This document shows positions 2,799 to 52,305 of a stretch of DNA of 64,000 nucleotides, in pieces (the first letter of the stretch is position 1; each line of letters starts with the position of its first letter). A model generated the notes under the pieces. It saw only the letters and a program-made list of their open reading frames with translations. It searched no databases and was not told the DNA's origin. The stretch is from Lacipirellula parvula (GTDB lineage Bacteria; Planctomycetota; Planctomycetia; Pirellulales; Lacipirellulaceae), in the NCBI RefSeq assembly GCF_009177095.1, contig NZ_AP021861.1, positions 6,492,501-6,556,500 of the forward strand. The letters run 5' to 3'. Both the position numbers and the translations under genes were made by a program.

Positions 2799-2878
2799 GC
2801 GAGCCGGGGCGTCCCCGCCCCCCGGTGAATTGCTTACTCTTCAGCAACTGGCAACTGACTACGGACCACTGACATCCT
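2799..2878. repeat. GC palindrome plus CTGACNA heptamers
   Basis: The gap between the ABC-GNAT gene and the ParB-like gene holds a GAGCCGGGGCGTCCC element followed by variants of the heptamer CTGACAA/CTGACCA. No gene is visible in the gap. Confidence 0.7.
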
Positions 2879-20235: not shown

Positions 20236-20802
20236 ATGCACCGTCAGCCGCTACTACAACTGCTCGATCGCTACGACAGCCGCCATCCGAGCGAGGCGGC
20301 GATGACTGATCGCATTCGCCAGCTCGTCGTCGCCCATGCCGACTGCTTCGACCGCACTTGCCGGCCTGGACATATCACCGCCTCGGCATGGATCACCACC
20401 CCTAAGCGCGATCGGTTCCTGCTGGTCCACCACCGCAAGCTGAACCGCTGGCTGCAGCCGGGGGGCCATGCCGACGGACAGACCGACGCCGCGGACGTGG
20501 CGATGCGCGAGGCGACCGAAGAGACCGGCCTGCCCAACCTCCGTCACGCCGCCACGGGCGCCGACGCGACGCCGCTCGACGTCGACGTTCACATCATCCC
20601 CGCCCGCCACGACGCCGCCGGCAACCAGATCGAAGACGCCCACGAACATCACGACGTCCGCTTCCTGATCATCGCCGAGGGGGACCTCGCCCCGCAGGTG
20701 AGCGAAGAATCACACGCCGTCCGCTGGTTCACTGCGGAAGAGCTGCAAGCCACGATCGAAGAAGAATCGGTCCTAAGGCTCTGGCGCAAATCGGCCCTCT
20801 AG
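20236..20802 (+). CDS. NUDIX hydrolase
   Basis: 188 residues. The Nudix box is GGHADGQTDAADVAMREATEETGL in the middle third, in the arrangement G-x5-[E]-x7-REATEETGL. The first Glu of the consensus is Thr here, while the RE-x-EE core that binds metal is intact; this substitution is seen in some planctomycete and actinobacterial members. The enzyme should cleave a nucleoside diphosphate linked to another moiety; the substrate is not predictable. The stop codon TAG runs directly into a GAGCCGGGGCGTCCC repeat. Confidence 0.85.
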   Translation: MHRQPLLQLLDRYDSRHPSEAAMTDRIRQLVVAHADCFDRTCRPGHITASAWITTPKRDRFLLVHHRKLNRWLQPGGHADGQTDAADVAMREATEETGLPNLRHAATGADATPLDVDVHIIPARHDAAGNQIEDAHEHHDVRFLIIAEGDLAPQVSEESHAVRWFTAEELQATIEEESVLRLWRKSAL

Positions 20803-21046
20803 CGAGCCGGGGCGTCCCGCCCCCGGCGCTTTTGCAATTTCGTCAGTCGTCCGTGGTCAGTCGTCAGTTGCTGCTGTCGCCGCTGCACTCTCCCTCCGCC
20901 GCCCCCCGGGGGCGAGGACGCCCCGGCTCGCGCCCGCACCTACGCAACTCCCTCCCCGCATCCCCAGCAACTGACCACGGACCACTGACAACTGACAACT
21001 GGCGCTTCTCCCGCAACAACTGCCCACTGCCCACTCCACTGCAATC
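20801..21046. repeat. Mosaic of GC palindromes and CTGACNA heptamers
   Basis: The order is: GAGCCGGGGCGTCCC element, CAGTCGT/GTCAGTTG heptamers, the inverted GACGCCCCGGCTCGC element, then ACTGACAACTGACAACT and CTGCCCACTGCCCACT tandem units. The two halves are mirror images, so this is a nested palindrome of two families. Confidence 0.85.
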
Positions 21047-26106: not shown

Positions 26107-26655
26107 ATGCGTTCACTCACTCGTTGTCTCCTCGCCGCGCTGCTGCTAGCAGCCGTCGCTCCTGCCGTTCGCGCTCAAATGCCGGCCCTACCCGAGCACA
26201 AGCACCTCGCTTCGGAAGTCGGCGTCTGGGACGCCGAAGTGAAACTCTGGCCCACCCCCGAATCGGAGCCGATGACGAGCAAGGGCTCCGAGACGAACGA
26301 AATGTTCGGCAGCTTTTGGCTCCTCAGCAAATTCGAAAGCGACTTCGGCGGCATGAAGTACACCGGACACATGCAACTCGGCTACGATCCCCAGAAGAAA
26401 AAGTACGTCGGCACCTGGATCGACACGATGAGCCCCTTCCTGCAAACGATGGAAGGGACCTATGACGAGAAGACGAAGACCTCGACGATGCTCGCCAGTG
26501 GCGTCGACATGGGAACCGGCAAACCGTCGTCTAGCAAAATGACGACCCGCTTCGAGAGCGACGACGTCAAAATCTTCGAAATGATGATGCCGGTCGAAGG
26601 AAAGAAAGACGAGTGGTGGAAGTCGATGGAGATCAAGTACACGCGACGTAAGTAG
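26107..26655 (+). CDS. Exported DUF1579 protein
   Basis: 182 residues with an AGGAGAG ribosome binding site. The signal peptide (MRSLTRCLLAALLLAAVAPA, cleavage after about residue 23) is followed by a DUF1579 domain: HLASEVGVWDAEVKLW, then GGMKYTGHMQLGYDPQKKKY and WIDTMSPFLQTMEGTYD. Lipocalin-like beta folds of this family are common in planctomycetes, with unknown ligand. Tryptophans and glycines at the expected positions support the call. A strong terminator follows. Confidence 0.85.
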   Translation: MRSLTRCLLAALLLAAVAPAVRAQMPALPEHKHLASEVGVWDAEVKLWPTPESEPMTSKGSETNEMFGSFWLLSKFESDFGGMKYTGHMQLGYDPQKKKYVGTWIDTMSPFLQTMEGTYDEKTKTSTMLASGVDMGTGKPSSSKMTTRFESDDVKIFEMMMPVEGKKDEWWKSMEIKYTRRK

Positions 26656-26679
26656 GCCGGCAGGCGGCAGTCAAAAACA

Positions 26680-26716
26680 AAAACGCCGAGGTCCCGCAGC
26701 GGGCCTCGGCGTTTTT
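26680..26716 (+). terminator. Rho-independent terminator of the DUF1579 gene
   Basis: AAACGCCGAGG and CCTCGGCGTTT arms with a T-run. Because an A-run precedes it, it can work on both strands. Confidence 0.88.
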
Positions 26717-26776
26717 ATGTTTGCATGACAAGAATATTTAACCGTCAAGGAAAGGCGAGATCCCCCCGATTTCTTT

Positions 26777-26968
26777 TGAGTCTTCGCGCCTTTGCGTGAG
26801 AACTTTCTTCCTTCAATAAGATCTCACGCAAAGGCGCAGCGGCGCAAAGGGAAGGCAAGGCGGAGGGAATTAACTTGCTTCTCGTCGTGTCCGTCGTGTC
26901 GTTGTGGTTCAACTCCTCTCCCCGCATTTCCTTGGCGCTCTTGGCGTCCTTGGCGGTTCAAAAAAGAA
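26777..26968. repeat. TTTGCGCC repeat copy 6 plus CTTGGCG words
   Basis: The inverted pair at 26780-26850 is followed by GTCGTGTCCGTCGTGTCG and CTTGGCGCTCTTGGCGTCC, ending at the 3' end of the gene at 27639-26971. It shows the same order of words as 25797-25990. Confidence 0.82.
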
Positions 26969-31656: not shown

Positions 31657-31685
31657 CTAGCCCCGACCTAGCTAGGTCGGGGCTA
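31657..31685 (+). terminator. Palindromic terminator (CCCCGACCTAG family)
   Basis: A perfect palindrome around CTAGCTAG followed by TTTT, directly after the channel gene. It is the same sequence as at 16389 and 32702. Confidence 0.9.
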
Positions 31686-31846
31686 TTTTCGCAGCGCATT
31701 TCGCAGCGTAACGTGATCTCTACGCGCGTCACTCGCCCTCGCCTGCAGACGGCCGCCAATTCCACTACAATGCGCCGACGGTCGAAGCTCCGCCGCTCGA
31801 CCTGTCGCCACTTCTCCGCCCACGCATCCGCCGAGGTCCAGCGATC

Positions 31847-32638
31847 ATGCAACGCCGCAACTTCCTCCAAGCCTCCCTCACCGCCTCGTCCGTCGCCGCG
31901 GTCGGCTTAGCGGCCTCGCCGCAAACCATCGCCGCCGCTCCCGCCGCGGCCGAACGCGAACTCTACGAATGGCGCACCTACCGCCTCAAAGACAAAGCCC
32001 AACAACCCGCACTGCACGACTACCTGAAATCGGCCGCGATCCCCGCTTGGAAGAAGCTCGGCCTCGGTCCCGTCGGAGCCTTCACTGAAATCGGCCCCGA
32101 CGACGGCCCGTCGGTTCACGTGTTGCTCGTCTACCCGAACCCTGCCGCGTTCGCCGCCGCTCGCGAGGCGCTCGAAGCCGACGCCGCGTTCACCACAGCG
32201 ACCAACGCTTACCGCACCGCGAAGCGCGAATCGCCCGCTTACGAAGGCATCGACAGTTCGCTGATGCTCGCATTCGCGTCGACGCCCACGATCACGCCGC
32301 CGGCCCAGAAGCCGCGCGTCCTCGAGCTCCGCACCTACAAGAACCACAACGACGACCGCGCTCGCGCGAAGGTCGCGATGTTCAACGACGGCGAGTGCGA
32401 CATCTTCCCGAAGTGTGGTTTTGAAAACGTCTTCTTCGGCGAAACGCTCGTCGGCGACGACCAGCCGAACCTGAAGTACATGCTCGCCGCGCCAGACATG
32501 GCAGCTAACGAAAAGGGCTGGAAGGCGTTCCTCGAGTCTCCCGACTTCATCCGCATGCGCGACGACGCCAAATACGCCGACACGCAGCCGGCGATCACGA
32601 AACTGTTCCTAGAACCGACCGACTACTCCGAAATCTAG
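31847..32638 (+). CDS. NIPSNAP-family protein with Tat-like signal
   Basis: 263 residues. MQRRNFLQASLTASSVAAVG is a twin-arginine-type signal (RRNFLQ), so export in a folded state is likely. Two NIPSNAP-like halves follow: RELYEWRTYRLKDKAQQPAL with an acidic-aromatic ferredoxin-like fold, and the second from LELRTYKNHNDDRARAKVAMF. The family is of unknown function and is often duplicated, as here. The stop codon TAG is the first part of a TAGCCCCGGG repeat. Confidence 0.85.
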   Translation: MQRRNFLQASLTASSVAAVGLAASPQTIAAAPAAAERELYEWRTYRLKDKAQQPALHDYLKSAAIPAWKKLGLGPVGAFTEIGPDDGPSVHVLLVYPNPAAFAAAREALEADAAFTTATNAYRTAKRESPAYEGIDSSLMLAFASTPTITPPAQKPRVLELRTYKNHNDDRARAKVAMFNDGECDIFPKCGFENVFFGETLVGDDQPNLKYMLAAPDMAANEKGWKAFLESPDFIRMRDDAKYADTQPAITKLFLEPTDYSEI

Positions 32639-32662
32639 CCCCGGGCTCCGCCCGGGGGTCGG
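32636..32662. repeat. TAGCCCCGGG repeat, lone copy supplying a stop codon
   Basis: The palindrome starts with the TAG that ends the NIPSNAP gene. No opposed partner is nearby. Confidence 0.85.
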
Positions 32663-32701
32663 TGTCCATCGCGCAAGACGCCGCGCCGCCGAAAAACGCC
32701 A

Positions 32702-32735
32702 ATAGCCCCGACCTAGCTAGGTCGGGGCTATTTTT
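32702..32735. terminator. Palindromic terminator (CCCCGACCTAG family)
   Basis: The third copy of this palindrome, followed by TTTTT on the plus strand. It lies between the convergent NIPSNAP and methyltransferase genes. Confidence 0.9.
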
Positions 32736-35557: not shown

Positions 35558-38500
35558 ATGGCGATGGCCGACGCTTCGCTCGCTGCACGCACCCAATCCC
35601 GTCCCGCTGGCTCCACGCGCAGTGCCGCCAAGCGATTCCATGGACGGCTCAAGATCGACGCCCAGTTCTGCCCCGTCGAGGTGGCTGACGTCTACGACAC
35701 CGTTCAATGGGACGTTCGCAGCGCCGCCATCAAGGGCGAGAACGGCGAAGTGTTGTTCGAGCAAACCAACTGCGAAGTGCCGCAGTTCTGGTCGCAGCTC
35801 GCCACCAACGTCATCTGCAGCAAATACTTCTACGGCGAAGTCGGCACTGAACAGCGCGAATACAGCGTCCGCCAGCTGATCCACCGCGTCGTCCGCACGA
35901 TCACCGACTGGGGTCTCGAAGACGGCTACTTCGCCACCGCCGAAGATGGCGAGCGATTCTGCCGCGACCTGTCGTGGCTCTGCCTCCACCAACACGGCGC
36001 CTTCAACTCGCCCGTGTGGTTCAACGTCGGCCTCTACCACCAATACGGCGTCACCGGCGCCAAGTGCAACTGGCGCTGGGATCCGCAAACCCGCGAAGTC
36101 GTTCAGCCTGAGAACCCCTACGAGTTCCCCCAAGGCTCGGCCTGCTTCATCCAGCACGTCGACGACAACATGGAAGACATCATGGAGCTCGCCCGCAGCG
36201 AGGCCATGTTGTTCAAGTTCGGTAGCGGCACCGGCACCGACCTCTCGACGCTCCGTTCGCATCGCGAAAAGCTCGCTGGCGGCGGCAAGCCCTCGGGCCC
36301 CCTTTCCTTCATGCGGGTTTACGACCAAGTCGCTGCCGTGGTGAAGTCGGGCGGCAAGACCCGTCGCGCCGCCAAGATGCAGTCGATCAAGGTCTGGCAT
36401 CCAGACGTGATGGAATTCATCGAATGCAAGTGGAAGGAAGAGCAAAAGGCTCGCGTCCTCATTGAAAAGGGCGGCTACGAGTCGAACTTCAACGGCGAAG
36501 CCTACAGCTCGATCATGTTCCAGAATGCGAACCTCTCGGTTCGCCTGACGGACGACTTCATGCACGCCGTCGAGAAGAACGCCGAGTGGACCACCCGCTG
36601 GGTCACCGACCCCAAGAAGGCCGGCCCCTCCTACCAAGCTCGCGACGTCCTCAACCGCATGGCCGACTGTGCGTGGCACTGCGGCGATCCGGGCGTCCAG
36701 TACGACACGACGATCAACAACTGGCACACCTGCCCGAACAGCGGTCGCATCAACGCCAGCAATCCGTGCAGCGAGTACATGTTCCTCGACGACACGGCCT
36801 GCAACCTGGCGAGCATCAACCTGATGAAGTTCCGTCAGGAAGACGGCACGTTCGACGCCGATCGCTTCCGCGCGGCTTGCCGGCTCTACTTCATCGCCCA
36901 GGAAATCTTGGTCGATCACGCCAGCTACCCGACGCAAGACATCGCTCGCAACAGCCATGCCTTCCGTCCGCTGGGTCTCGGCTACGCGAACCTCGGCAGC
37001 CTGCTGATGGCGGGCGGCATGGCCTATGACAGCGAAGCCGGTCGCGGCGTTTGCGGCGCCATGACGGCCCTGCTCCACGGCGCCGCCAACCTGACGAGCG
37101 CTGAACTTGCCGAAGCCGTCGGCACGTTCGAAGGTTTCGAGCTCAATCGCGAACCGATGCTCCGCGTCATGGAAATGCACCGCGCCGCGACCGAGCAAAT
37201 CAAGCCCGAGTGCCCCGAGTACCTCCGCGATGCGTCGCGGCAAGTGTGGGACGAGGTCGTCGCCGCTGGCGCCGCTCACGGTTTCCGCAACGCTCAGGCC
37301 ACCGTGCTCGCCCCCACCGGCACCATCAGCTTCATGATGGACTGCGACACCACCGGCATCGAACCTGATATCGCCCTGGTGAAGTACAAGCAGCTCGCCG
37401 GCGGCGGCATGCTGAAGATCGTCAACCAAACCGTCCCGGCCACTCTCGCCACCCTCGGCTACGAGCAACCCGAGATCGAGTCGATCATCGACTACATCAA
37501 CAAGGAAGATACGATCGAAGGCGCCGCCGATCTGAAGCCCGAGCATCTCTCGATCTTCGACTGTGCGTTCACGCCGCGCAACGGTACGCGCAGCATCGCC
37601 TGGCAAGCTCACGTCACAATGATGGCCGCCGCTCAGCCCTTCCTGTCGGGCGCCATCAGCAAGACCGTCAACATGCCCCGCGACACGACGACCGAGGACA
37701 TCGCTCAGGCCTACTTCGACGGCTGGCGTCTCGGCCTGAAGGCCCTCGCGATCTATCGCGACGGCTCGAAGGAAAGCCAACCGCTGAACACCGGCACCGA
37801 AGCCGATAAGGCGAAGGCCAAGGAAGTCGCCGCCATCGCGAAGCCCCGCCGCGAACGGTTGCCCGACACCCGTCAGTCGGTCACCCACAAGTTCAACGTG
37901 GCTGGTCACGAAGGCTACATCACCGTCGGCCTCTATCCGGACGGCCGCCCGGGCGAGCTCTTCATCACGATGGCCAAGGAAGGTTCGACCATCGGCGGTT
38001 TGATGGACGCCTTCGGCACCGCGGTCTCGATGAGCCTGCAGTACGGCGTGCCGATGGAAGATTATGTTCGCAAGTTCAGCCATATGCGGTTTGAACCTCA
38101 AGGACATACGAAGAACCCCGACATCCGCATCGCGAAGAGCCTGATCGACTACATCTTCCGCTGGATGGGAATCACGTTCCTCCCCGGCTACAAGGAAGCG
38201 AGCTTGGGCCTGCCGCTCGAAGGCCCCAGCCCGGCCGCAAACCCTGCCGGCGACGACGAGGTTTCGGACACACAGCACAAGCCCGTCGCCAAGAAGGCCG
38301 ACGGGCTGACCAGCAGCTCGGAAGCAAAGCCCGCCGCGGCCAAGTCGGAATCATCGAAGCCGGCAAGCTCCACTGAGCGAGCCGGGTCGTCCCCGACCCC
38401 GGCCGCCAAGACCAATGGCCACACGAACGGTCACGGCAAGAACGGCAGCAACGGCAACAGTTCTAACGGCAACGGCAACTCCTTCTACAGCGCCAAGCTC

Positions 38501-38677
38501 CTCGAACGAGCCGGCGTGCTGACGAAGAGCGACGCCGCCAGCCCCAACATCCGCAGCGAACAGTTCGCGCAGTTCCAAATCGACGCCCCGGCGTGCGACG
38601 GCTGCGGCGCGATCACCGTCCGCAACGGCAACTGCTACCTCTGCCACAACTGCGGCAACAGCATGGGCTGCAGCTAA
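35558..38677 (+). CDS. nrdJ: Vitamin B12-dependent ribonucleotide reductase
   Basis: 1039 residues from ATG at 35558, with AGGAGG 7 bases upstream. The enzyme makes deoxyribonucleotides with adenosylcobalamin as radical source. Class II features: NPCSEYMFLDDTACNLASIN, VLAPTGTISFMMDCDTTGIE, and a long C-terminal TSCPD domain. After it comes a low-complexity Ala/Ser/Asn-Gly linker (about 885-985) and a zinc ribbon ACDGCGAITVRNGNCYLCHN ending in CGNSMGCS. No nrdA/nrdB is seen, so this is probably the main reductase. A GAGCCGGGT-type repeat is read through inside the linker at about residue 940. Confidence 0.96.
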   Translation: MAMADASLAARTQSRPAGSTRSAAKRFHGRLKIDAQFCPVEVADVYDTVQWDVRSAAIKGENGEVLFEQTNCEVPQFWSQLATNVICSKYFYGEVGTEQREYSVRQLIHRVVRTITDWGLEDGYFATAEDGERFCRDLSWLCLHQHGAFNSPVWFNVGLYHQYGVTGAKCNWRWDPQTREVVQPENPYEFPQGSACFIQHVDDNMEDIMELARSEAMLFKFGSGTGTDLSTLRSHREKLAGGGKPSGPLSFMRVYDQVAAVVKSGGKTRRAAKMQSIKVWHPDVMEFIECKWKEEQKARVLIEKGGYESNFNGEAYSSIMFQNANLSVRLTDDFMHAVEKNAEWTTRWVTDPKKAGPSYQARDVLNRMADCAWHCGDPGVQYDTTINNWHTCPNSGRINASNPCSEYMFLDDTACNLASINLMKFRQEDGTFDADRFRAACRLYFIAQEILVDHASYPTQDIARNSHAFRPLGLGYANLGSLLMAGGMAYDSEAGRGVCGAMTALLHGAANLTSAELAEAVGTFEGFELNREPMLRVMEMHRAATEQIKPECPEYLRDASRQVWDEVVAAGAAHGFRNAQATVLAPTGTISFMMDCDTTGIEPDIALVKYKQLAGGGMLKIVNQTVPATLATLGYEQPEIESIIDYINKEDTIEGAADLKPEHLSIFDCAFTPRNGTRSIAWQAHVTMMAAAQPFLSGAISKTVNMPRDTTTEDIAQAYFDGWRLGLKALAIYRDGSKESQPLNTGTEADKAKAKEVAAIAKPRRERLPDTRQSVTHKFNVAGHEGYITVGLYPDGRPGELFITMAKEGSTIGGLMDAFGTAVSMSLQYGVPMEDYVRKFSHMRFEPQGHTKNPDIRIAKSLIDYIFRWMGITFLPGYKEASLGLPLEGPSPAANPAGDDEVSDTQHKPVAKKADGLTSSSEAKPAAAKSESSKPASSTERAGSSPTPAAKTNGHTNGHGKNGSNGNSSNGNGNSFYSAKLLERAGVLTKSDAASPNIRSEQFAQFQIDAPACDGCGAITVRNGNCYLCHNCGNSMGCS
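38376..38402. repeat. GAGCCGGG palindrome inside nrdJ
   Basis: GAGCCGGGTCGTCCCCGACC, the same family as at 2799, 20801 and 52234, encodes TERAGSSPTP in the flexible linker of NrdJ. Because the linker is disordered, it tolerates the insertion. Confidence 0.8.
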
Positions 38678-38812
38678 GCGAGAAGAAAAAGGCGAGCCGC
38701 GGGGTTCACCCCCGCGGCCTTGTCTTCCCCTCGCGAAAGAACCCTGTCACCCCGAGGTACTCCGAGGGGTCCGGCCAGAGTTCCGCAGCGAGCAAAAACC
38801 GGGTGACACCGC

Positions 38813-38853
38813 AACGGGCGTCGAACGAGCTACGAGCTTGTTCGACGCCCGTT
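38813..38853 (+). terminator. Long hairpin after nrdJ
   Basis: A 19-bp stem with one mismatch, AACGGGCGTCGAACGAGCT against its complement, and a 3-base loop. There is only a weak T-run. Other GC repeats, including a CGCGGGGTTCACCCCCGCG hairpin near 38698-38716, fill the gap before it. Confidence 0.6.
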
Positions 38854-38878
38854 CTATGTAATCCCAGGATAGCGAGCC

Positions 38879-39694
38879 ATGAAAGAAGACTTATTCGCTC
38901 TTATAGGTGGACGCTTGGAGAAAGTCTGCACCCGCGACGTACCAGCCTACGAACGCGACCCGAGCAAGACATGGATTGGCAGCTCACCTTGGCATTTAGA
39001 CCTCAAATCTTTCACACTAACCCACGAACGAGAACATATCAGCACTGCCTTCAGCGTCGACCCGTCTGTGCTATTCCATACACAGATAGTCGAACTTGGC
39101 CCCCGAACTCTAGAAGGACGTCGAGTACAAACACCAACTGCTACTTGGTTCGAGATAAGCAACCATCTATACCACAACCCTCATTTCCGATTCGAGTTCT
39201 GCACGAGCCCCGAGAAACTTGAGCACTTCATCGCCGCTTCTCACTGGCTTGACGGATGCGAGACAGTTGTCGTAACGCCCCGCAGCAATGACAAAGGCCG
39301 CGATGTAATTGCAGAAAACAAGTGGACGCGAATCCTCCATGAAGCGAAGGCGTACAACCCCAATCGACGCGTAAAAGCAGAGCAGGTACGAGCACTGTGG
39401 GGTGTTTTCAGTCGCGACAAGGATGCCACGTGCGCTGCAATCACGACAACAGCGGACTTCGCACCTGGTGTGCACGACGAGTTTCACGATTTGCTCTCTA
39501 ATGAGTTGCACCTATTTAATGGCGAAGACTTTGCGAAGCACATTAACCGTATAACAACCACAATCTCGGCCGCTTCCCTCAGTCGTCGATTGTTCTCGGA
39601 AGCTGGCGGTCAAATTTCATGCGTTCAAGGACGCGTCCTTCCGAAGCGAAAGCAATTGACCTTTGAACAATTCAAACAATTGCGAGATGGTTAA
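38879..39694 (+). CDS. Mrr-like restriction endonuclease, PD-(D/E)XK type
   Basis: 271 residues. The catalytic core is in the second half: GRDV at 140-143 and E-A-K at 155-157 (ILHEAKAY), then AEQVRALWGVFSRDKDATCA and AITTTADFAPG. This G-R-D/E-x-K plus V-x-x-L-x-G and ITT-x-x-F pattern is the Mrr/restriction type IV signature. The N-terminal 110 residues are unassigned and could recognise DNA. The gene looks AT-richer than its neighbours, and no methylase is adjacent, which suggests a transferred type IV or lone nuclease. Confidence 0.8.
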   Translation: MKEDLFALIGGRLEKVCTRDVPAYERDPSKTWIGSSPWHLDLKSFTLTHEREHISTAFSVDPSVLFHTQIVELGPRTLEGRRVQTPTATWFEISNHLYHNPHFRFEFCTSPEKLEHFIAASHWLDGCETVVVTPRSNDKGRDVIAENKWTRILHEAKAYNPNRRVKAEQVRALWGVFSRDKDATCAAITTTADFAPGVHDEFHDLLSNELHLFNGEDFAKHINRITTTISAASLSRRLFSEAGGQISCVQGRVLPKRKQLTFEQFKQLRDG

Positions 39695-39727
39695 GCCAGC
39701 GTAGGTTAACCCCAAGCGGCTACCACG

Positions 39728-40110
39728 GATGGCGCCAACACTCTCGCGAAACCGCTCTTCCATTCCTAACCGCCCGCCCGCCAGCGTGTCCGTGCTGCTT
39801 CAAGCAATAAGAGGCGACGCGACTTAGAACCACTGTCATCTCGTCGGGAATGGGACCCCAGCACGCTGCCCGTGCCTCTCTCGTCGGCCGCCCCCCTCTT
39901 CCGTTCGCAGTGCTAGCTCTTGCGGGATTTCTCAGAATCTCCTCCAACAGCTTTCCTCCCAAGAACTTCCCCTCGCTCCTTCTCCTGCCCTGGCCGCCGT
40001 GGGGGGCGCAAAGCTTTTGATTACTCTGACCTCCACCGGGTGGTCAGCCTCCTCGAATGCACCATAGCCTTACCAGTCGCGCGAGCCGACAAGGAACAGC
40101 GGCTGGCTTC
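39728..40110 (-). pseudogene. Decayed duplicate of the esterase 3' region
   Basis: These bases align, with many changes, with 40818-41215: TGGCGAAACGCCTCCTCCAT against its counterpart CTCGCGAAACCGCTCTTCCA, then shared words from GGGACCCC to GAGCCGACAAGGAACAG. The intact counterpart contains the flank and the C-terminal coding part of the esterase. No long frame is open, so this is a fossil of a tandem duplication. It separates the Mrr-like and crystallin genes. Confidence 0.55.
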
Positions 40111-40313
40111 TTGGTGTATTCCCCCCAAAAGACTGGCGAGTCTTCCATCGTTAGCGAAAAGCAATGCAACTAGGATCAGATCACTTATGAAAATTAATGA
40201 CATTTCACATCCGTTTTAAATACTTTCAACCACCCACCTTGAAAAAGCACAAGCAAAGTGCACATTACTTGCCGGACAGTCGCCACATCCTCCCACTTAC
40301 CTTGGAGATTCTT

Positions 40314-40670
40314 ATGCCTTCTCAAAGTCCCGCGCTTCTGGCAGCGATGAAACTCGCCGTGAAAGCAAACCCAAAAAACAAAAATGGAGTATGGGCCGTT
40401 TTGTATAAGGACAATAACTACGGTGGTAAGCCTTTGCTGATAGACGATGCCGGGCAAACCACGATGCCTAACGGTTGGGATGATGAAGCGACTTCCGCAA
40501 TTGCAGGCCCGAACGCGGTATTTCGACTATTCCATAAGGCAGGTTACCAATCCGCTCACATCACGCTATTACCTGGGGAGGAGATTTCGAATCTTAAGCT
40601 TGTGGGAATCCACGACGGCGGCTCATCGTATAAGCTTTGGGATGCCAATGCTCTGACGCCCCCCTACTAG
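40314..40670 (+). CDS. Beta/gamma-crystallin-family protein
   Basis: 118 residues from ATG at 40314 with TTGGAG 7 bases upstream. GVWAVLYKDNNYGGKPLLID is the first strand pair of a Greek-key crystallin motif, and WDDEATSAIAG carries D-D-x-x-T-S, the calcium-binding signature of microbial beta/gamma-crystallins. A second, weaker half follows (VFRLFHKAGYQSAHITLLPG). No signal peptide is present in this frame. Such domains bind calcium and can be protease inhibitors or dormancy-related proteins. The gene is AT-richer than its surroundings. Confidence 0.72.
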   Translation: MPSQSPALLAAMKLAVKANPKNKNGVWAVLYKDNNYGGKPLLIDDAGQTTMPNGWDDEATSAIAGPNAVFRLFHKAGYQSAHITLLPGEEISNLKLVGIHDGGSSYKLWDANALTPPY

Positions 40671-41010
40671 CAATTTTGACTTATGAATTAAACCGATACC
40701 CTGGTAAAATTAGCTTTTGACTCCGAAAACTATCAACCAGGGCATCGGTTCTCTTCTCAAAAAACCAAGACGTGTCCAATAGACATCGGCTCCCCTTGCA
40801 GCTAACGCGGGTGGCACCGACGCCCTGGCGAAACGCCTCCTCCATTCCAAACTGCTCCAGCCGCCAGTGTGTGGGTGTTGCATCAGCAACACGAGGCAAG
40901 CCGCGTGTAAGCTCCATCACCTCCTGTCGCTGGCGCGACCCCGACACGCGGCCGGCATTGTTGCACGGAATGGCTCGTCGTTCGCGGCCGAGTGTCGCGG
41001 CCACCCACAA
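40671..41010. other. Gap with hairpin and an ancestral flank
   Basis: ACCGATACCCTGGT (from about 40691) pairs with ACCAGGGCATCGGT (about 40735-40748), a candidate terminator for the crystallin gene. From 40818 the sequence is the counterpart of the duplicate at 39728. A minus-strand frame of 109 codons is open here, but it shows no recognisable protein. Confidence 0.45.
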
Positions 41011-41856
41011 TCACTCGCTACCCTTCTCCAATCGCTTTCCTTCCAAAAACTCCCACACGCGTTCGTTCTCGCGGCGCGGCCAACCATGGCCGAAACCCTC
41101 AATCATCCGGAACTCTACCGGATGCCCCGCCCGCTCGAACGCTTCGTAACCTTTTCGAACCATTGCCGGCGGGACTTGGCGATCGCGGTCGCCGACGAGG
41201 AACAGCATTGGGCACTTGTTGGCCGTCTGCAGCGGGCTGTCGCCGAGCGGATCTGGCAGCCAGCCGCAGCCGACGACGGTGGCGGCGATCTGGTCGCTGC
41301 ACATCGCGGTGAGCGCGTTCGCCGCCGCGCCGCCCTGCGAGACGCCGAGTAGGTAGATCCGCTGCGGGTCAACGTCGTACTCGCGGACGACGAAGTCGCA
41401 CATGGCGTTGAAGAACTTCGCGTCGGGTTCGTAGATGCCTGGATTCTCCGGCGGGATGAACGGCGGCCAGTTGAGCATTCGCCCCTGCAAGTAGACGAGC
41501 AGGAAGCCCTTTTCGATCGCTAGGCGGTCGAGTTCCGTGTACGCGGCCATTTCGTCGACGGTGTCGAGGGCGCCGTGGAGGGCGAAGATGACTGGGATGT
41601 TGTGATTGGGTTTGGCGGGGGTTGGGTGTGAGGGAAAGACCGAGGGGATGAACCCCTCGGCTCGCTTGTCGACACTTGGCGCTACGAGTCGGTACTCGCG
41701 TGGCTCGCCGTCGATGATTATCGAGCCGTGCACCACCGTAGCTTGCGGCTGCCAGGACCATGTGGCGAAAGCGCCGACGAGCAGGGAGAGAATCCCCACG
41801 CCGACGGCCCTCTTCCAGCGCCTCTGCCCTGTCGGTAATGCACGATCAGCTTCCAT
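41011..41856 (-). CDS. Alpha/beta-hydrolase esterase (PHB-depolymerase/LpqC-like)
   Basis: 281 residues from ATG at 41856 (an upstream start at 41934 is also open). A membrane anchor lies at 16-33. The esterase fold has VIFALHGALDTVDEMA at about 89-104, the nucleophile elbow LLGVSQGGAAA with Ser173, Asp223/225 in VGDRDRQVP and His257 in GFGHGWP. The family hydrolyses esters such as feruloyl or hydroxybutyrate polymers; the substrate is unknown. A palindromic element is read in frame as RAEGFIPSV at 65-73. Confidence 0.85.
   Translation of the reverse strand: MEADRALPTGQRRWKRAVGVGILSLLVGAFATWSWQPQATVVHGSIIIDGEPREYRLVAPSVDKRAEGFIPSVFPSHPTPAKPNHNIPVIFALHGALDTVDEMAAYTELDRLAIEKGFLLVYLQGRMLNWPPFIPPENPGIYEPDAKFFNAMCDFVVREYDVDPQRIYLLGVSQGGAAANALTAMCSDQIAATVVGCGWLPDPLGDSPLQTANKCPMLFLVGDRDRQVPPAMVRKGYEAFERAGHPVEFRMIEGFGHGWPRRENERVWEFLEGKRLEKGSE
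41636..41666. repeat. CGAGGGG palindromic element in the esterase gene
   Basis: CGAGGGGATGAACCCCTCGG is a stem-loop that, on the minus strand, encodes AEGFIPSV. It is identical in sequence and frame to the copy at 44905-44935. Confidence 0.9.
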
Positions 41857-42264
41857 CGACGCCGAACTCACCACGATTAGGAAAGCCGAAAAACCGCTCC
41901 GCCGGCCGATCAGAGGTAAATGGACGGCGGCCACCAGCCGATCGTCCCGAAAATTGCGGCCTTCACGCAGAAAACCCTACAAAAACAGGCCTGCAACGCC
42001 CTTGAAAAATATGACAAATACTTCCTTCCAAGTGATTGCCGCCCCTGCATCGGGCAGTTAATCTACAGCCTGGCAATTGTATTACCATTCAATCGCCTCC
42101 CTTTTCTCGACGATCTATTCTTGGCACGCCTCCGCCCCCCCGCATACCTGGCGGAACAGCACGCACTCACTCAAAGCAATTAAGCAAACCCGCGGAACAG
42201 GCTGAGAACGAGAGCAGCCTCTCTCGCGCGACACCACCTTTTCTTCATCACGAGGTCAGACATC
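41857..42264. other. Gap upstream of the first PEP-CTERM gene
   Basis: About 400 bases, partly the alternative N-terminal extension of the esterase, partly an AT-richer stretch at 42060-42200. It holds a candidate ribosome site (GAGGT) at the very end. No gene or strong signal is visible. Confidence 0.4.
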
Positions 42265-42969
42265 ATGAAGCGAATCTTGCTGTGCGTCGCGGTCGTTGCC
42301 GCGTTATTCGCCAGCACCGCCCAAGCGGCAACCGTCTACGACATCTCCGCCGGTTTTGATACGGCGAACAATCCCAGCACGCTCGGCCCGTGGAGCTACG
42401 GCTCTTCGACCGGCTTGTCGTTCGTCCCGCTGCCGCTCACCGGCGGCAGCAATCCGATCTATCATTGGCGGTCGGCTTCGGAAGAGGTGTACATCGAAAA
42501 GAACACCTCCGCCTCGTCGACGGTCGACTCCTTCGGCCGTTATTGGCCTGCCGGTCAAGTTACCATCCATCCCGGCAGCGCCGAATACGGCGTCTTGCGA
42601 TTCACGGCGCCTGTCGCCGGCACGTACAACTTCAACGTTGGGTACACGGGCAACAGCCCCGCGAACACGACGACCGACGTGCACGTCGTCCTCAACGGGA
42701 ACCTCGCTCCGCCGCTGTACAGCGGACTGGTCAACAGCGCTCAAGACGTCCCGAACGGCATCAACGGCGCCGGGCCGACCTTCACGGACACGGTGACGCT
42801 GGCGGCCGGCGGCACGCTCGATTTCGTCGTCGGCAACGGCGGCAACGGTCATCCCAACGACCTCACGGGCATCTCTGGTTCGGTCACGCTCGTTCCCGAG
42901 CCGGCGACTTTGCTGTTGGCGACGCTGGGCGTCGCTGCTTGCGGTGCGGTTCGCCGCCGCCGCGACTAG
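42265..42969 (+). CDS. PEP-CTERM sorted secreted protein 1
   Basis: 234 residues. The signal peptide MKRILLCVAVVAALFASTAQ is followed by a beta-rich secreted domain (YWPAGQVTIHPGSAEYGVLR, TFTDTVTLAAGGTLDFVVGN) and the C-terminal sorting signal VPEPATLLLATLGVAACG with RRRR. The PEP motif, hydrophobic helix and basic tail direct processing by an exosortase. The N-terminal domain resembles secreted proteins of unknown function in planctomycetes. Confidence 0.85.
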   Translation: MKRILLCVAVVAALFASTAQAATVYDISAGFDTANNPSTLGPWSYGSSTGLSFVPLPLTGGSNPIYHWRSASEEVYIEKNTSASSTVDSFGRYWPAGQVTIHPGSAEYGVLRFTAPVAGTYNFNVGYTGNSPANTTTDVHVVLNGNLAPPLYSGLVNSAQDVPNGINGAGPTFTDTVTLAAGGTLDFVVGNGGNGHPNDLTGISGSVTLVPEPATLLLATLGVAACGAVRRRRD

Positions 42970-43131
42970 GACGACACGGAGCGATCAATCGCGTCCACGC
43001 CAATGGGGTCGGGAGTCTTATGCCACGAGCGGCAAAGGCTCTCGACTCTTTCTTTGCGTGCCATGAACGCTCTCAGCAAGCACCGTCCAATCAAGTATGC
43101 CAACCAGGGCTACCCGAACTCGCGGTAGCGA

Positions 43132-44349
43132 CTATCGCCGTTGCCGACGGCGTGCCGCCAGGCAACAGGCGAATCCGCTGCAAACTAACGCAAGCGTCGT
43201 CGGCTCGGGGACCGGATTGAGCAGGAACCCGCGAACTTCCAACGGCACGCCGCCTGGCCCGTCGGGGTCGTACGAACCGATGCCAACGATCTGGCCGCGG
43301 TCATTGATGCCGCGAACTCCATATAGCTGCCAGCCAGCGCCGGTGGAGTCGAGCAAGTCGCCCAAGTTCTGCATGCCGCCGCTGCTGGTCCAGAGAAACG
43401 ACAAGCCGTTAATAAGATTGGCCGATGAGCTACTGGTTGCGGAATCATCATCAGCGACGCCGACAACCATTCCAGCGTTATTGACATCGACCGCGCGACT
43501 TTGCAATCTACCGGGCAACAGCCCCAAATCGGACATGACGCCCGTTGAGCCGTTGGGAACTTGCGGATTCCAGAACATCGCGTGCCGGCGATTGCCGACG
43601 ACCGTGTCGCCGGCAACCTGCCCGACGTCGTTGATCTCCGCAGCAGAACTCGCGAGCCCCATCGGAGTCGCACTGAGCGGATACCGCACGCCGGCGAGGC
43701 CATTGGGGACGGTGGGAATGAAAACAAACGCCCCCTTGGCATCGACGCCAGCGATGTCGCCCCGCTCGTTGATGCTGTTGAGGACGACGTTCGTCCCGCC
43801 GCCGCCGCCGAAGAGCGTCATCGAACCGGTCGCCCCGTTGGGCGTCGATGGCTTCCAAATATAGGATTGCCGACCCCCGCCGACGAAATCCCAGCCGTTC
43901 ACGAGGATCGTCCCGTCTTCGCCGATATCCGGGCCGATGGGCCCTTCGAGATTCCCGCTAGGCCCAGGCGGGTACATTGCCTGCGAGATGGCGCCAGACG
44001 CGCCGTTTGGCAGATCGGGGGTCCAGAAGGGTTGGCTCAACGCCCCGGAGAGTATGCCGGGGCTTTTGCTGAGAATCTGCCCATAGTTATTCAACCGCAC
44101 GCCATCCCAAAGCCCCGTCCCGAAAGCGATTGACGTCGGAGCGGTCGCCCCTGGCTGCAGTAGCCCCGCGACAGGCGAGCCAAATCGAGGAGGCATGACG
44201 CCGGCGACCTGCCCTTGCTCGTTGATGTCGTCAGGCTGGAAGCCAGCCAGGTCAACTAACCGATAGCTTGGCGCCGCGTACGCGTCGAACACGCTGCACA
44301 GCAATGCCGCAATGACTCCCAGCCAGACACGCACGCAGCAGATTCTCAT
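43132..44349 (-). CDS. PEP-CTERM protein with HAF-like repeats
   Basis: 405 residues from ATG at 44349 with GAGG upstream. The signal peptide (MRICCVRVWLGVIAALLCSV) is followed by repeated units of D-x-N-x-x-G-x-x-x-G type: DINEQGQVAGVM, SINERGDIAGVD, EINDVGQVAGDT, DVNNAGMVVGVA, GINDRGQIVGIG. These are typical of the HAF-repeat family, where each unit forms a small beta structure. The end is VPEPTTLALVCSGFACC plus an arginine-rich tail. It is exported and anchored or released by an exosortase; the ligand is unknown. Confidence 0.85.
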   Translation of the reverse strand: MRICCVRVWLGVIAALLCSVFDAYAAPSYRLVDLAGFQPDDINEQGQVAGVMPPRFGSPVAGLLQPGATAPTSIAFGTGLWDGVRLNNYGQILSKSPGILSGALSQPFWTPDLPNGASGAISQAMYPPGPSGNLEGPIGPDIGEDGTILVNGWDFVGGGRQSYIWKPSTPNGATGSMTLFGGGGGTNVVLNSINERGDIAGVDAKGAFVFIPTVPNGLAGVRYPLSATPMGLASSAAEINDVGQVAGDTVVGNRRHAMFWNPQVPNGSTGVMSDLGLLPGRLQSRAVDVNNAGMVVGVADDDSATSSSSANLINGLSFLWTSSGGMQNLGDLLDSTGAGWQLYGVRGINDRGQIVGIGSYDPDGPGGVPLEVRGFLLNPVPEPTTLALVCSGFACCLAARRRQRR

Positions 44350-44479
44350 GAGACGCCTCGACAAGAGTTAATGACCAGAAAACCACGACGACTCGTAAAA
44401 CTTTGATTAATGTAACTTCTCGGGAGCCATATGTCGATTATTCGCGACTGCAGCCGCGGGAATGCAATACGCTACGCTG

Positions 44480-44537
44480 CCCGCCGGTTCAAAGAACCGG
44501 GCATTCATCCCCCCCGGTTTGAAGAACCGGGGGCTAA
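44480..44537. repeat. GGTTTGAAGAACC hairpin, double copy
   Basis: CCCGCCGGTTCAAAGAACCG followed by CCCCCGGTTTGAAGAACCGG: two tandem stem-loops of the same family. Single copies lie at 45749-45779 and 48103-48133. Confidence 0.88.
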
Positions 44538-45589
44538 GCGGGGGGGTGGGGTTTTGGCGTGGACATTTTGTCGCCAAACGCATTTTTGGCGACAAAATGC
44601 TCTTGGTCCTCTGGCTGCGGTTCTTGCGGCGGCGATGTCGATGGCGCCGCGCGGCGGGGCTCGATGCAGGGGGATGCAAGCTTGCCCTCCAGGCAGTGCT
44701 CTTTGCCTGGAGCGCATGCGGTTCGCTCGCCGCAAGCCGGCGGGAAATCGGCATCCACTTCTGCGAGGGCGAGTTCGTAGAGGTCTTCACGCGACGGCGA
44801 TGGATCGCTGGGCGCGGCTGGCGGGACCATGCATCTTGGCGCCGCAGCTTGCGCCGCGGGGGCGTCTTCGATGACGGTTGCGTCGTCGTCGGGGTTGTCT
44901 TCTACCGAGGGGATGAACCCCTCGGCTCGCTGGACGCCCTCTTTGGCTCGCTGGATGAAGCCCTCGGCTCGCTCGGCGTCCGCCTCGTCCTGCTTGATGA
45001 ACGTTTCGGCTAGCTTGCGGTCTTCATCGTTGAGGAAGGCGGGAACGCCCGGGGCTTGAGTGAGCAGTTTCCAGCGGAGATGATTGCCGAGCGGCGTTTG
45101 CGGGAGCTTCGGCGACCGCGGATGGCCCCAGGGGCCGAGGTTCGGGAAGCAGCAGTCGAGGGCCCGTTGGCAGGCGGCGTCGATGAACGGGAATAGACGC
45201 TCCTGCTCGGCGGGCGGCAACAGCTGCAGCACTGCTTCCATCACCGCGTTGACGGCATGGTTCACTTGACCGGCGTGCGCCATGTTGGTCGGGCGGCGAG
45301 CGTATTGCTCGGGCCGGGTTCGCTCGAGCAACCATGCGGCAGCCCGCCAGTGGGTGCGGGCGGCGGCTTGCATCAGCTTGAGCGGATCGGGCGGCGCGCT
45401 GAGCGCCAGGAGCAACTCGTGGTCGAAATCTTCGTCGTACTTGCGTTCGCGCTGCACGGTGCGCAGCGAGACGCCGATCGCTTCGGCGGCCTCGACGAGC
45501 GTGGAACTTTCGCGAACGAGTTGGCAGAGCTTGACCCGAAGTTCGGGCGTCAGGACGCGGTTGCGGCCGCGGATGTATTGGCGTTTCAT
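44534..45589 (-). CDS. HTH protein, terminase-small-subunit-like
   Basis: 351 residues. An HTH of Homeodomain/terminase type lies at about 12-50 (LTPELRVKLCQLVRESSTLV, EAAEAIGVSLRTVQRERK). THWRAAAWLLERTRPEQYARR at 79-99 matches a motif found in phage terminase small subunits and in the protein at 1586-1095. The middle is helical. From about 200 the sequence becomes repeat-derived: ERAEGFIQRAKEGVQRAEGF then IPSV, and near the end HFVAKNAFGDKMS from another palindrome. It could be a domesticated phage regulator or packaging protein. No phage genes are adjacent. Confidence 0.65.
   Translation of the reverse strand: MKRQYIRGRNRVLTPELRVKLCQLVRESSTLVEAAEAIGVSLRTVQRERKYDEDFDHELLLALSAPPDPLKLMQAAARTHWRAAAWLLERTRPEQYARRPTNMAHAGQVNHAVNAVMEAVLQLLPPAEQERLFPFIDAACQRALDCCFPNLGPWGHPRSPKLPQTPLGNHLRWKLLTQAPGVPAFLNDEDRKLAETFIKQDEADAERAEGFIQRAKEGVQRAEGFIPSVEDNPDDDATVIEDAPAAQAAAPRCMVPPAAPSDPSPSREDLYELALAEVDADFPPACGERTACAPGKEHCLEGKLASPCIEPRRAAPSTSPPQEPQPEDQEHFVAKNAFGDKMSTPKPHPPA
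44564..44599. repeat. CATTTTGTCGCCAAA perfect inverted repeat
   Basis: Perfect 15-bp arms, CATTTTGTCGCCAAA and TTTGGCGACAAAATG, with a 6-base core. They lie inside the C-terminal coding part of the HTH gene and encode HFVAKNAFGDKM. Confidence 0.92.
44905..44935. repeat. CGAGGGG palindromic element in the HTH gene
   Basis: A second copy of the element seen at 41636, read in the same frame as RAEGFIPSV. Two degenerate tandem copies follow at about 44936-44985. Confidence 0.9.
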
Positions 45590-45887
45590 TGTTGTCCCCC
45601 GTTGTGTTGAACTTGCGTTGAGCGCAGTGCTCGGCCGCGGCAGGCGCCGGCGGCACGAAGTGAACGTGCGTTCACACTACTATATTGGTCGAGGGAATCC
45701 AATAACCGATTTCCGGCCACCTTGAGGAGAATGCGCGCGGAGTGGCGCGAGCCCCCGGTTTGAAGAACCGGGGGCTAAAAAGGGCCGGGGTGGCCGGGAA
45801 TTGGGGGTTGGCGCTTGCCTCTTGTGGCTGCGCCGCCCAGGTAGGCGAGTACGCCAACCTGGGCTACCCGGTGGGCCACCCAGACGA
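45590..45887. other. Gap between HTH gene and beta-rich PEP-CTERM gene
   Basis: It holds the palindrome GTGAACGTGCGTTCAC (about 45660-45675), a GGTTTGAAGAACC hairpin (45749-45779) and the stem CCCAGGTAGGCG/CGCCAACCTGGG (about 45837-45864). No gene is visible. The first palindrome could be an operator for the HTH gene, as it lies upstream of its start. Confidence 0.5.
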
Positions 45888-47960
45888 TCAGCGCTTGCGA
45901 CGGCGACGGTGCATCGCGAGGGTTGCGGCTGCGGTGATGGCGAGGAACATCGTGGCGGGTTCGGGGACGGTGATCGCTTCCAAGCGGAGCGATACCTGGT
46001 AAGGCGAGTAGTCGACGGCCCAGTGGTAGGCGAGGCCATCACGGTGCGAGACGGGGGCGTTGTCGAACGTTCCCGCGACGCCGCCAAGCGCGGTGATGAT
46101 TGGGAAGGCGTCGCCGATTTGCGGGGCGAAGGGGACGCCGCTGGCGTCGAAGAGCAATACCTCCAGCAAGCCGTCGAGCGTCGCGGCGCCATCGGTGACG
46201 AGCAGGTGGTCGTAAGATTCGCCCAGCGCGTCACCGCCGACGCGGACTTGCAGCGTGCCGTCGTCGTCGTTCACGAACCGATTGACGGCGACCAACGCGG
46301 CCAGGTCGGGCTCGATGCCGCGGAACTTCAAGCGACCGTGGTTCTCCAGCCCGGCGGCATCGAAGACGACCGTGTGATGAATGCACATCTCGCCGCCGAG
46401 GCCGTTGATAATCGTGCCCGCGCCGTTGATCTCCGCTCCACTGAGGAAGTGAGACTCGCCGCGCAGTCGCAGTTGCGAAGCGGCTGAGGCGAAGTTCAGC
46501 TGTGCATCGGGCCAGAAGAACACGTTGGCGCCGATTTCGACCTTCGTGGCGTCGACGTTCATCTGGCCGTTCATCACGAAGTGAGCGCCGTCGATCCGAT
46601 TGACGAACAGCACGGGGTTGCCGGAGAGATTGAGCACGCCATTCATCGACCAACCAAACTGCGTACCGCCGCCGAGGTTCATCGTGAGCTTTCCCAAGAA
46701 TCCGCCGCTGATGGTCATCTCGCCTTCGAAAAAATCGAACGGTTCGGTTTTCGTCGTGACCGCGTTGATGACGAAGGGCGCCGCGATATTCCAGTTCGTG
46801 TGATTATCCTCGCCGCTGAAATCGAACAGGCCGGCATTGACCACCGTCGGCGACGTGACGGAAGCGTCGCCGTTTTGCTGGGCGCGGCCGTTGACCGTGA
46901 TGGTTCCGGCCCACTCGGTAGCGCCGTTGAAGTTGACCTGCCCGCCGTGCTCTCCGATGCCGTTGGTGTTGAAGGTTCCCCCCTCGACGCTGGTGTCGCC
47001 GAGGAAGATGAGGCGATCGTCCTCGCCAACGACGACGTTCGCCGTGGGGGCGAGCGTGGCGTCGGCGGCGACTTCGAGCGTCGCCGTCCAGCCGCCGACG
47101 TCGATTCCGCCAGCGAGCGTGACGCGGTCGCCGCTAATGACCGCTCGCTCGGCCGGGCCTTGATTGCCGAGCTGGCCGAACACGTCGATGAAGCTCGACG
47201 CATCAGCGGTCCAAGTGCCGACGCTCATGTTGAGCCGAGCGTACGGGCCAAGCGTGATCAATCCACTGAACGCGTCGGTGATGGCTCCACCGCTGAAGCT
47301 GAGCCGAGCGACATCGCTCCCGCTGACCAAGATTTCGCCGTTGCCGGTTTGTCCGTCGAGATCGAACGCGCCGTCGTTCGTTTGGATGCAATTGATCACG
47401 CCCGCGCCCGCCGCGACTAGGCCGTTGTTCGTGAGCGTCGTCCCCGTTCCCGAGAGTTGAACGCCGCCGTTGTCGTTGAAGAGGCCGCGAATCTGGCCGT
47501 TCACGATCAAGTCTTCGCTGACGCCGATGATGCCATTTTGCAGCCAGACGTTAGACTCGGCGCCGATGATGAGATCATGAGTGAAATAGTCGGTTCCGAA
47601 CCCGGCGTCTTCAACGTTGAGTCGCGTGTTGTCGCCGCTGAGCGTCGTGTCGCCGGCGACGATCATCACGTGCCCTTCGTTTTGCAGGGCCATGCCGTTG
47701 GAAATTTGCAGCCCGGCGATCGTTGCGTCCTGATTGAGGAAAACGGTGTGGTTGACGACGCCGGGGAGGTTGCCGAGGCGGACGACGTCGGCCGCGCCCG
47801 GCGCGCCGGCCGGCGTCCAGCGGGCTGCATTCGACCATGAATCGCTGTCGGCGGCGTTCCACGACTTGTCGACGGCGCGGGCTGCGGGTGCACTCCCTAG
47901 TGCGAGCAGGAGGCCGATCGTACCGGCGAGCCAAATGCGGTTGCTGCGTGTTGCGTTCAT
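45888..47960 (-). CDS. Large beta-rich PEP-CTERM protein (autotransporter-like passenger)
   Basis: 690 residues. After a signal peptide (IWLAGTIGLLLALGSAPAAR), the mature part is a chain of short beta-strands with G-N-D turns (ADVVRLGNLPGVVNHTVFLN, VAADATLAPTANVVVGEDDR), as in the pectin-lyase-like passenger proteins that are frequent in planctomycetes (SDSWSNAARWTPAGAPGAAD at the start is the usual opening). The end is VPEPATMFLAITAAATLAMH with an R/K tail. It is likely surface or extracellular. No enzyme motif is visible. Confidence 0.83.
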   Translation of the reverse strand: MNATRSNRIWLAGTIGLLLALGSAPAARAVDKSWNAADSDSWSNAARWTPAGAPGAADVVRLGNLPGVVNHTVFLNQDATIAGLQISNGMALQNEGHVMIVAGDTTLSGDNTRLNVEDAGFGTDYFTHDLIIGAESNVWLQNGIIGVSEDLIVNGQIRGLFNDNGGVQLSGTGTTLTNNGLVAAGAGVINCIQTNDGAFDLDGQTGNGEILVSGSDVARLSFSGGAITDAFSGLITLGPYARLNMSVGTWTADASSFIDVFGQLGNQGPAERAVISGDRVTLAGGIDVGGWTATLEVAADATLAPTANVVVGEDDRLIFLGDTSVEGGTFNTNGIGEHGGQVNFNGATEWAGTITVNGRAQQNGDASVTSPTVVNAGLFDFSGEDNHTNWNIAAPFVINAVTTKTEPFDFFEGEMTISGGFLGKLTMNLGGGTQFGWSMNGVLNLSGNPVLFVNRIDGAHFVMNGQMNVDATKVEIGANVFFWPDAQLNFASAASQLRLRGESHFLSGAEINGAGTIINGLGGEMCIHHTVVFDAAGLENHGRLKFRGIEPDLAALVAVNRFVNDDDGTLQVRVGGDALGESYDHLLVTDGAATLDGLLEVLLFDASGVPFAPQIGDAFPIITALGGVAGTFDNAPVSHRDGLAYHWAVDYSPYQVSLRLEAITVPEPATMFLAITAAATLAMHRRRRKR

Positions 47961-51984: not shown

Positions 51985-52305
51985 TCACTCGCCGCCGGGC
52001 CGCTCCGGCAGGCCGAACGCGGCCGGGTCGGACTGGCGGATGGCCTCGACTCGTTGGGAGATCATCGGCATCGCCGGGAGTTCGCTGTAGAACTTTGCGC
52101 TGGGGTCGACGCCGTGGGCCTCGTGGCGGGCGATCATCTGGCGGATGGCGGGGATGCGGGCGGCGGCTGGGAGGATGAGGAGCCAAGTGGCGGCGAGGGC
52201 TACGGCGTAGGCGGCCAAGCGGGTGGCGCGGGGAGCGGGGGCGCCGGGGGCGGGACGCCCCGGCTCGCTGGTGGGGATCGATGGGTGAGGAGGATTACTG
52301 GGCAA
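51985..52305 (-). CDS. Small single-pass membrane protein
   Basis: 106 residues if started at TTG 52305, inside the last codons of the transporter gene. A membrane helix lies at about 30-48 ([20 protein letters not shown]), followed by a soluble tail ([20 protein letters not shown]) of unknown role. The N-terminal 25 residues are encoded by a GAGCCGGGG-type repeat, so the real start may be later. It is probably translated together with the transporter. Confidence 0.5.
52234..52272. repeat. GAGCCGGGGCGTCCC element in a gene start
   Basis: CGGGACGCCCCGGCTCGC and its upstream complement form a palindrome inside the 5' part of the small membrane protein gene. Confidence 0.75.

Follow-up and report, generated by a model that had tools for sequence, protein, structure and literature searches.

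Why should two otherwise unrelated proteins of the planctomycete Lacipirellula parvula share the peptide RAEGFIPSV, read from the same DNA palindrome in the same frame? The question is raised by a 64,000-nt stretch of its genome, referred to here as the window, in which the exact palindrome CCGAGGGGATGAACCCCTCGG is found at two sites on one strand (41640-41660 and 44905-44925). It had no match in 100 dinucleotide shuffles of the window, even with up to three mismatches. Our analysis suggests that RAEGFIPSV is probably the reading of a non-autonomous palindrome of the repetitive extragenic palindromic (REP) type that is copied around the genome, tolerated behind stop codons or in frame, and kept for its hairpin as a structure.

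The first copy lies in an open reading frame (ORF) for an esterase-like alpha/beta hydrolase (41011..41934, minus strand; Pfam Peptidase_S9 3e-9, Abhydrolase_2 4e-8) and the second in a helix-turn-helix (HTH)-like ORF (44534..45589, minus strand), for which the HTH_23 and DUF5535 matches are sub-threshold only. With its tag included, the element, GCGAG-CCGAGGGG-TTCAT-CCCCTCGG and termed T1 here, spans 41640-41665 and 44905-44930 on the minus strand, and both ORFs read it in one frame (...DKRAEGFIPSVFP... in the esterase, ...VQRAEGFIPSVED... in the HTH protein). The initial annotation, which had been made from the sequence alone, described this identical stem-loop with its shared strand and frame as well as two decayed tandem copies in the HTH gene (RAKEGVQ, RAEGFIQ). 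Both descriptions stand, the tandem copies being two 21-nt units at 44931..44972 (minus strand), upstream of T1 in the gene, that keep a GCGAGCC tag without the palindrome's 3' half. The HTH ORF itself is one member of a multicopy family with variable tails, with 10 matches in the L. parvula genome (G000) and 12 in G003, which together with G004 represents the sister species compared here. Tails of its paralogues carry LSPKT-like motifs, and a second palindrome, CATTTTGTCGCCAAA...TTTGGCGACAAAATG, lies near the end of the HTH ORF (44564-44599), where it is read in frame as HFVAKNAFGDKM.

T1 is present in many copies. A search of the single contig of 6,922,258 bases with a tag-plus-stem pattern, in which eight stem positions were free and at most two mismatches were accepted, gave 55 matches versus 0 for the reversed control; 54 are credible, the match at 2551266 being dropped because it has the tag TCGGG and a poorly paired stem and looks like chance. 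Aligned in their own orientation, the copies yield a consensus of about 35 bp, ACCA-GCGAG-CCGnGGGG-TTCAT-CCCCnCGG-TCTTC, so that the element consists of the tag GCGAG, an 8-bp stem, the loop TTCAT and the tail TCTTC (26-35 bp), with flanking information limited to about four bases before the core and five after it. The stem covaries (98% of cells paired and 24 double-change cells in 25 distinct rows, as high in 0 of 500 shuffles), in a test for which four of the eight stem pairs had been left free by the search pattern. The tag is GCGAG, and not GTAG, in 54 of the 55 matches, with a pattern that itself favoured GCGAG; the same five bases are the top 5-mer adjoining perfect hairpins in the DNA fetched around T1 (47, against 16 for the runner-up).

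The tag is shared with other bodies. When any body of suitable length was accepted, 86 places were found in the L. parvula genome (control 2). Certain other genera of the family reach counts in the tens, with counts elsewhere small and at control level. A second type, T2, combines GCGAG with a different body (GCGAGCCGGGGCGTCCCCGCCCCCGG and relatives) and is found at 50 places in L. parvula and in 13 of the 59 genomes searched, L. parvula included, with a control of 0. T1 with at most one mismatch occurs in nine of the 59, of which G009 and G011 look like chance. Outside its own genome, exact T1 was recovered from the genome collection in 45 stretches, all assigned to Lacipirellula, Pirellula/Pirellulales, Alienimonas or Planctomycetota, and from no viral contig. 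Alienimonas chondri, from another order, accounts for 18 of the 45; its copies have a different tail, often ACCGGTGAGCGCAG, and are mainly outside called genes (2 of 21 overlap one). Of the 55 T1 matches, 30 crowd near the two ends of the contig, in 0-0.4 Mb and 6.28-6.92 Mb. The clustering has a Rayleigh p of 3e-7 raw, which weakens to 0.016 once copies within 20 kb are merged, and we base no claim on it; scanning the terminal 5 kb on each side for DnaA motifs found nothing.

The position of the copies relative to genes bears on what kind of element this is. Genes were called with a simple periodic Markov caller trained on long ORFs, by which 77% of the fetched L. parvula DNA is coding. According to these rough calls, 34 of the 54 T1 copies are intergenic, versus 12.2 expected (p 2e-10); in 20 of the 34 the tag side points toward the stop end of a same-strand gene, at a distance of 41 nt or less in 15. 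With the same caller, trained on the L. parvula genome, 14 of 30 places in G003 and G004 fall in ORFs, three of these at the edge only. That the palindrome is a coding-only element is an interpretation that we reject since the majority of copies are intergenic. Short, palindromic, present in many copies with a common consensus and mainly extragenic near gene ends, T1 is a REP-type repeat.

The other 20 copies overlap called genes, and 17 of them lie well inside ORFs, the three remaining overlaps (399489, 6287458 and 6637759) being at ORF edges. At 15 of the internal sites the host gene could be assigned to a family through Pfam or PDB. The 14 genes concerned are putA (two copies), valS, fmt, lnt, xdhC, the window's esterase and genes for an mtaB-like radical-SAM protein, an RNase HII-like protein, a DUF1015 protein, an M20 hydrolase near ureidoglycolate hydrolase, a PQQ protein, an ABC-2 permease, 4-HFC-P synthase and a YjeF_N protein. 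Two sites remain outside known families, one in the HTH ORF and one at 6842255, where Pfam gave no match. Internal T1 is read in sense frames by 7, 3 and 1 copies and in antisense frames by 3, 2 and 1; the two single-copy frames rest on 5298464 and 5550112, both with the loop CTCGT, and the latter uses the frame in which the TTCAT loop is a stop and CTCGT is not. The peptide RAEGFIPSV itself is encoded once more, in the mtaB-like protein. Nine of the 15 known-family sites are outside all Pfam matches listed, namely those in lnt, mtaB, xdhC, the DUF1015, PQQ and esterase genes and 4-HFC-P synthase, and both in putA, one in the interval between Pro_dh and Aldedh and one behind Aldedh.

Comparison with relatives argues for insertion. 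For the esterase, 37 of 39 genomes were matched, of which only two gave close, near-full-length orthologues, the remainder being distant homologues; both close orthologues, in G003 and G004 of the same genus, lack 18 residues that include the element, which is thus present in one of three species. Of 30 aligned fmt loci, those of G000 and G004 have T1 and the remaining 28, including that of G003, do not (39 of 40 genomes matched). In mtaB the element is restricted to G000, G003 and G004 and missing from 27 of 30 aligned loci (35 of 40 matched), and in valS to G000 and G004 among 30 loci, one of them truncated (37 of 40 matched). The xdhC copy is common to the three species, the DUF1015 gene of G004 has no T1, the intergenic copies at 15797 and 16804 are not in G003, and at the spacing of the copy at 6845357 no recognizable element is found in G004. 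The presence of T1 therefore differs among sister species, yet many copies are common to them. An in-frame palindrome in unrelated genes that is missing from their orthologues (fmt, mtaB, valS, esterase, DUF1015) is, judged from these alignments, the behavior of a Rickettsia palindromic element (RPE). The initial annotation had suggested such an insertion, and the two esterase orthologues, the absence of RAEGFIPSV from all 13 aligned HTH-family homologues and the 15 further internal copies agree with it; nor was the motif seen at the same place in distant genera for the esterase, which the initial annotation had named as the sign of an ancestral motif.

What is retained between species is informative as well. 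Among 16 orthologous pairs of G000 and G004, eight are identical over 26 nt and three differ by one loop base; 9 of 256 stem positions differ, with aligned flanks about 71-95% identical, and in several intergenic pairs the flanks fail to align right up to the element. Three of five changed stem pairs are compensated; the one in fmt comes with replacement of the two amino acids it encodes (G to E and P to L). On these comparisons the hairpin, more than the encoded peptide, appears to be what is conserved. That the two window copies match had been read as a sign of youth, an argument we do not follow: with copies common to species so often identical, and with the mtaB and xdhC copies present in three species, an insertion is not dated by identity. 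The copy in the esterase gene may nevertheless be recent.

At some sites it is the type of element that differs between species. The window encodes a class II (B12-dependent) ribonucleotide reductase (35558..38677, plus strand; Pfam Ribonuc_red_lgC 7e-138, Ribonuc_red_2_N and TSCPD) that carries a T2 element, GCGAGCCGGGTCGTCCCCGACCCCGG, at 38377..38402 (plus strand), behind the TSCPD domain and in frame as ERAGSSPTPA. G003 also has T2 at this position, and G004 has T1 (ERAEGFIPSA) in identical register, 26 nt for 26 nt; G003 and G004 are the closer pair (96% versus 91-92% protein identity) and have the nearest seven bases before the tag and four behind the stem in common. Similarly, the first putA site holds T1 in G000 and T2 in G003, and the second holds T1 in G000 and, in G003, an in-frame palindrome that belongs to a different family, the CCCCGGGCTCCGCCCGGGG type. 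The mtaB gene of G011, from another genus, has T2 in the linker and frame where Lacipirellula has T1, the valS linker that holds T1 in G000 contains GCGAG-tagged repeats in G016, and a NifS-like gene has T1 in G004, in opposite orientation, where G000 has T2. In G001 and G011 the valS linker contains other extra sequence at the same place, which suggests a spot that is generally tolerant of insertion. Shared sites could reflect either repeated hits or exchange of the body in place; the case at 38377, which looks like an in-place swap of 26 nt for 26 nt, favors exchange. It could be speculated, tentatively and with the odds against it, that GCGAG-tagged REPs are exchangeable 26-nt cassettes, for which linkers serve as standing docking sites, with one palindrome family taking the place of another in the course of evolution, a tag-specific activity swapping bodies within genes with the frame kept and hairpins being corrected even when residues change.

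How such copies could arise and persist may be pictured as follows. A trans-acting activity that recognizes the GCGAG-tagged hairpin would copy the element, and insertions that break a protein would be lost. Survivors would be those past a stop codon or those in frame where the protein tolerates added residues, the latter persisting because a TTCAT-type element is open in five of its six frames. What would then keep the hairpin is selection on DNA or RNA structure or palindrome correction, and not the encoded peptide.

Several points weigh against a copied REP-type palindrome kept as a structure. The gene calls stem from our own rough Markov caller, and 6 of the 15 known-family internal sites are not clearly outside a domain: those in fmt, the M20 hydrolase, valS and YjeF_N are within a domain match, that in the ABC-2 permease is within one of three models, and in the RNase HII-like protein the element is behind a partial match. 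In PDB alignments of ValS, Fmt and the M20 hydrolase the element coincides with gaps, so that even inside domains the site is where homologues are shorter. The retention figure carries a bias, since a pair was counted only if each member matched a pattern, albeit one with eight stem positions free, and strongly decayed copies would be missed; of the five changed stem pairs, two lack Watson-Crick compensation and leave G-T pairs. Net length differences at internal sites vary (54 nt in the esterase, 15 nt in DUF1015, 21 aa in fmt), and clean insertion of one unit therefore stays unproven; the empty sites are too diverged for junctions to be defined. Finally, no mobilizer was seen, T1 or T2 being found at none of the four Y1_Tnp loci with 1.5-kb flanks; one of the four has an unrelated GCGAG hairpin. 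The HTH gene is left as a lead in this respect. Six of seven fetched L. parvula paralogues have a GCGAG hairpin upstream, as an inverted pair in five, and it stays a lead because several of these paralogues are near-copies of each other and the fetched G003 paralogues have no hairpin.

Two alternatives deserve some weight, each of which we hold to be unlikely. The hairpin could primarily be a functional RNA at 3' ends, marking the transcript end or stabilizing the mRNA and selected for host expression, with internal copies as by-products. The 15 intergenic copies that begin within 41 nt of a same-strand stop codon would fit this, as would the several retained beside diverged sequence; the T1 stem, however, is followed by no T-run (mostly by TCTTC or TCCCC), so that it does not resemble an intrinsic terminator, 17 copies are well inside ORFs with six of them antisense, presence among sister species is patchy, and no Rfam match was obtained in 38000-46500 of the window. 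Equally doubtful is a REP of the GTAG type with a diverged tag, moved by a REP-associated tyrosine transposase (RAYT, a tyrosine HUH transposase). Its general architecture of tag, stem and short tail is alike, Y1_Tnp genes exist in the genome, and in five of the six cases where GCGAG hairpins lie less than 150 nt apart in the fetched DNA, the two are inverted relative to each other with the tags outside, but the tag is GCGAG and the elements adjoin none of the four Y1_Tnp matches.

The remaining two readings are far less probable. Direct kinship with the Rickettsia elements, by descent or transfer, would explain the similar behavior of in-frame palindromes in unrelated genes, and we regard it as very improbable: tag and stem of T1 differ from those given in the accessible part of PMC3733652, a comparison by description, for the CGTC-type REPs that hold RPE-4 and RPE-6, and the exact T1 stretches outside the own genome are confined to the groups named above, though no search aimed at RPEs themselves was made. 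The chance that RAEGFIPSV is an ancestral, functional peptide shared by descent is smaller still. That one peptide occurs in the esterase, HTH and mtaB-like proteins is what this reading has in its favor; against it, orthologues lack the peptide, one DNA is read in five frames, and its loop variant in a sixth, to give different peptides, and most copies are intergenic. We reject it, as the orthologue comparisons refute it.

A copied REP-type palindrome belongs to a known kind of element. RPEs are likewise palindromic repeats in frame inside unrelated proteins; compared by description only, they differ from T1 in sequence, and T1 is mostly intergenic. T1 is presumably also shorter than RPE-1. 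With REPINs and RAYT-mobilized REPs it has tagged palindromes and the occurrence of inverted pairs in common, whereas no RAYT was found adjoining the elements, and T1 copies are mainly singletons, with pairs a minority. The initial annotation knew of no description for planctomycetes, but Di Nocera et al. (2013; PMC3733652), in the part available, report GTAG- and CGTC-tagged REPs, with tagged REPs of another tag than GCGAG in Planctomycetes, place RPE-4 and RPE-6 within the CGTC type, and note intragenic REPs in several species, tRNA synthetases included, suggesting linkers and loops as tolerant. As described there, both REP types resemble T1 in an unpaired tag at one end, a short tail and a position mostly between genes, downstream of coding regions, and CGTC REPs also in a stem of 8-9 bp, a loop of 4-5 nt and the absence of a transposase. 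T1 departs from the CGTC type of that account in its tag, a stem start of CC/GG and not AT, the tail TCTTC and not CCA, and its occurrence mostly as singletons and not dimers; it departs from the GTAG type in its tag and in flanking no Y1_Tnp locus (n=4, 1.5-kb flanks). The available part of a HUH survey (PMC6006769) describes class 3 TnpA_Y1 of Planctomycetes with 'CnGA'-footed structures, which are likewise planctomycete palindromes with a 5' foot and lie beside a HUH protein; the foot CnGA does not match GCGAG.

Literature on in-frame palindromes, on planctomycete or intragenic REPs and on Lacipirellula repeats, covered at the level of titles and abstract starts with subscription journals mostly outside, gave no description of the GCGAG family among the papers listed. 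Set against the accessible parts of PMC3733652, RepRanger (PMC12306157) and PMC6006769, the kind is known, and the GCGAG tag family, in-frame copies in planctomycete housekeeping genes, the shared linker sites and the in-place switch appear undescribed. In-frame palindromic repeats are thereby extended to planctomycetes and to the housekeeping genes valS, fmt, putA, lnt and ribonucleotide reductase. As orthologues at several distances offer empty, occupied and swapped sites, genome data can be used to address the spread of REPs that have no known transposase and the question of whether intragenic repeats are kept as DNA or RNA structure or as protein. For annotation this means that a peptide such as RAEGFIPSV, SEPGGSSPR or TAGMNPAAR, when shared by planctomycete proteins, can stem from a repeat and need not be a homologous motif.

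Beyond the elements that the initial annotation described, and in addition to the T2 element in the ribonucleotide reductase gene, the window contains a third T1 copy, intergenic at 38692..38717 (plus strand), 14 nt past a same-strand stop codon, which G004 retains and G003 lacks. T2 hairpins are found at 20802..20826 (plus strand, at the end of a predicted gene) and 20906..20931 (minus strand), the left and right halves of an inverted pair with the tags outside, and at 52244..52268 (minus strand), and a T2-like hairpin at 2799..2825 (plus strand), the last two sites being intergenic by the rough gene calls. A GCGAG hairpin of a different stem type, CCCCCGGTT, lies about 160 nt upstream of the HTH ORF at 45747..45774 (plus strand). 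Other palindromes occur as well: a different family, TAG-CCCCGGGCTCCGCCCGGGG-GTCGG, at 9507-15339 and 32634-32687; TAGCCCCGACCTAGCTAGGTCGGGGCTA in three copies (16390-16421, 31658-31689 and 32703-32734), two of them identical over 32 nt; and several inverted repeats of the TTTGCGCCTTCGCGCCTTTGCGTGA type within 20140-26859.

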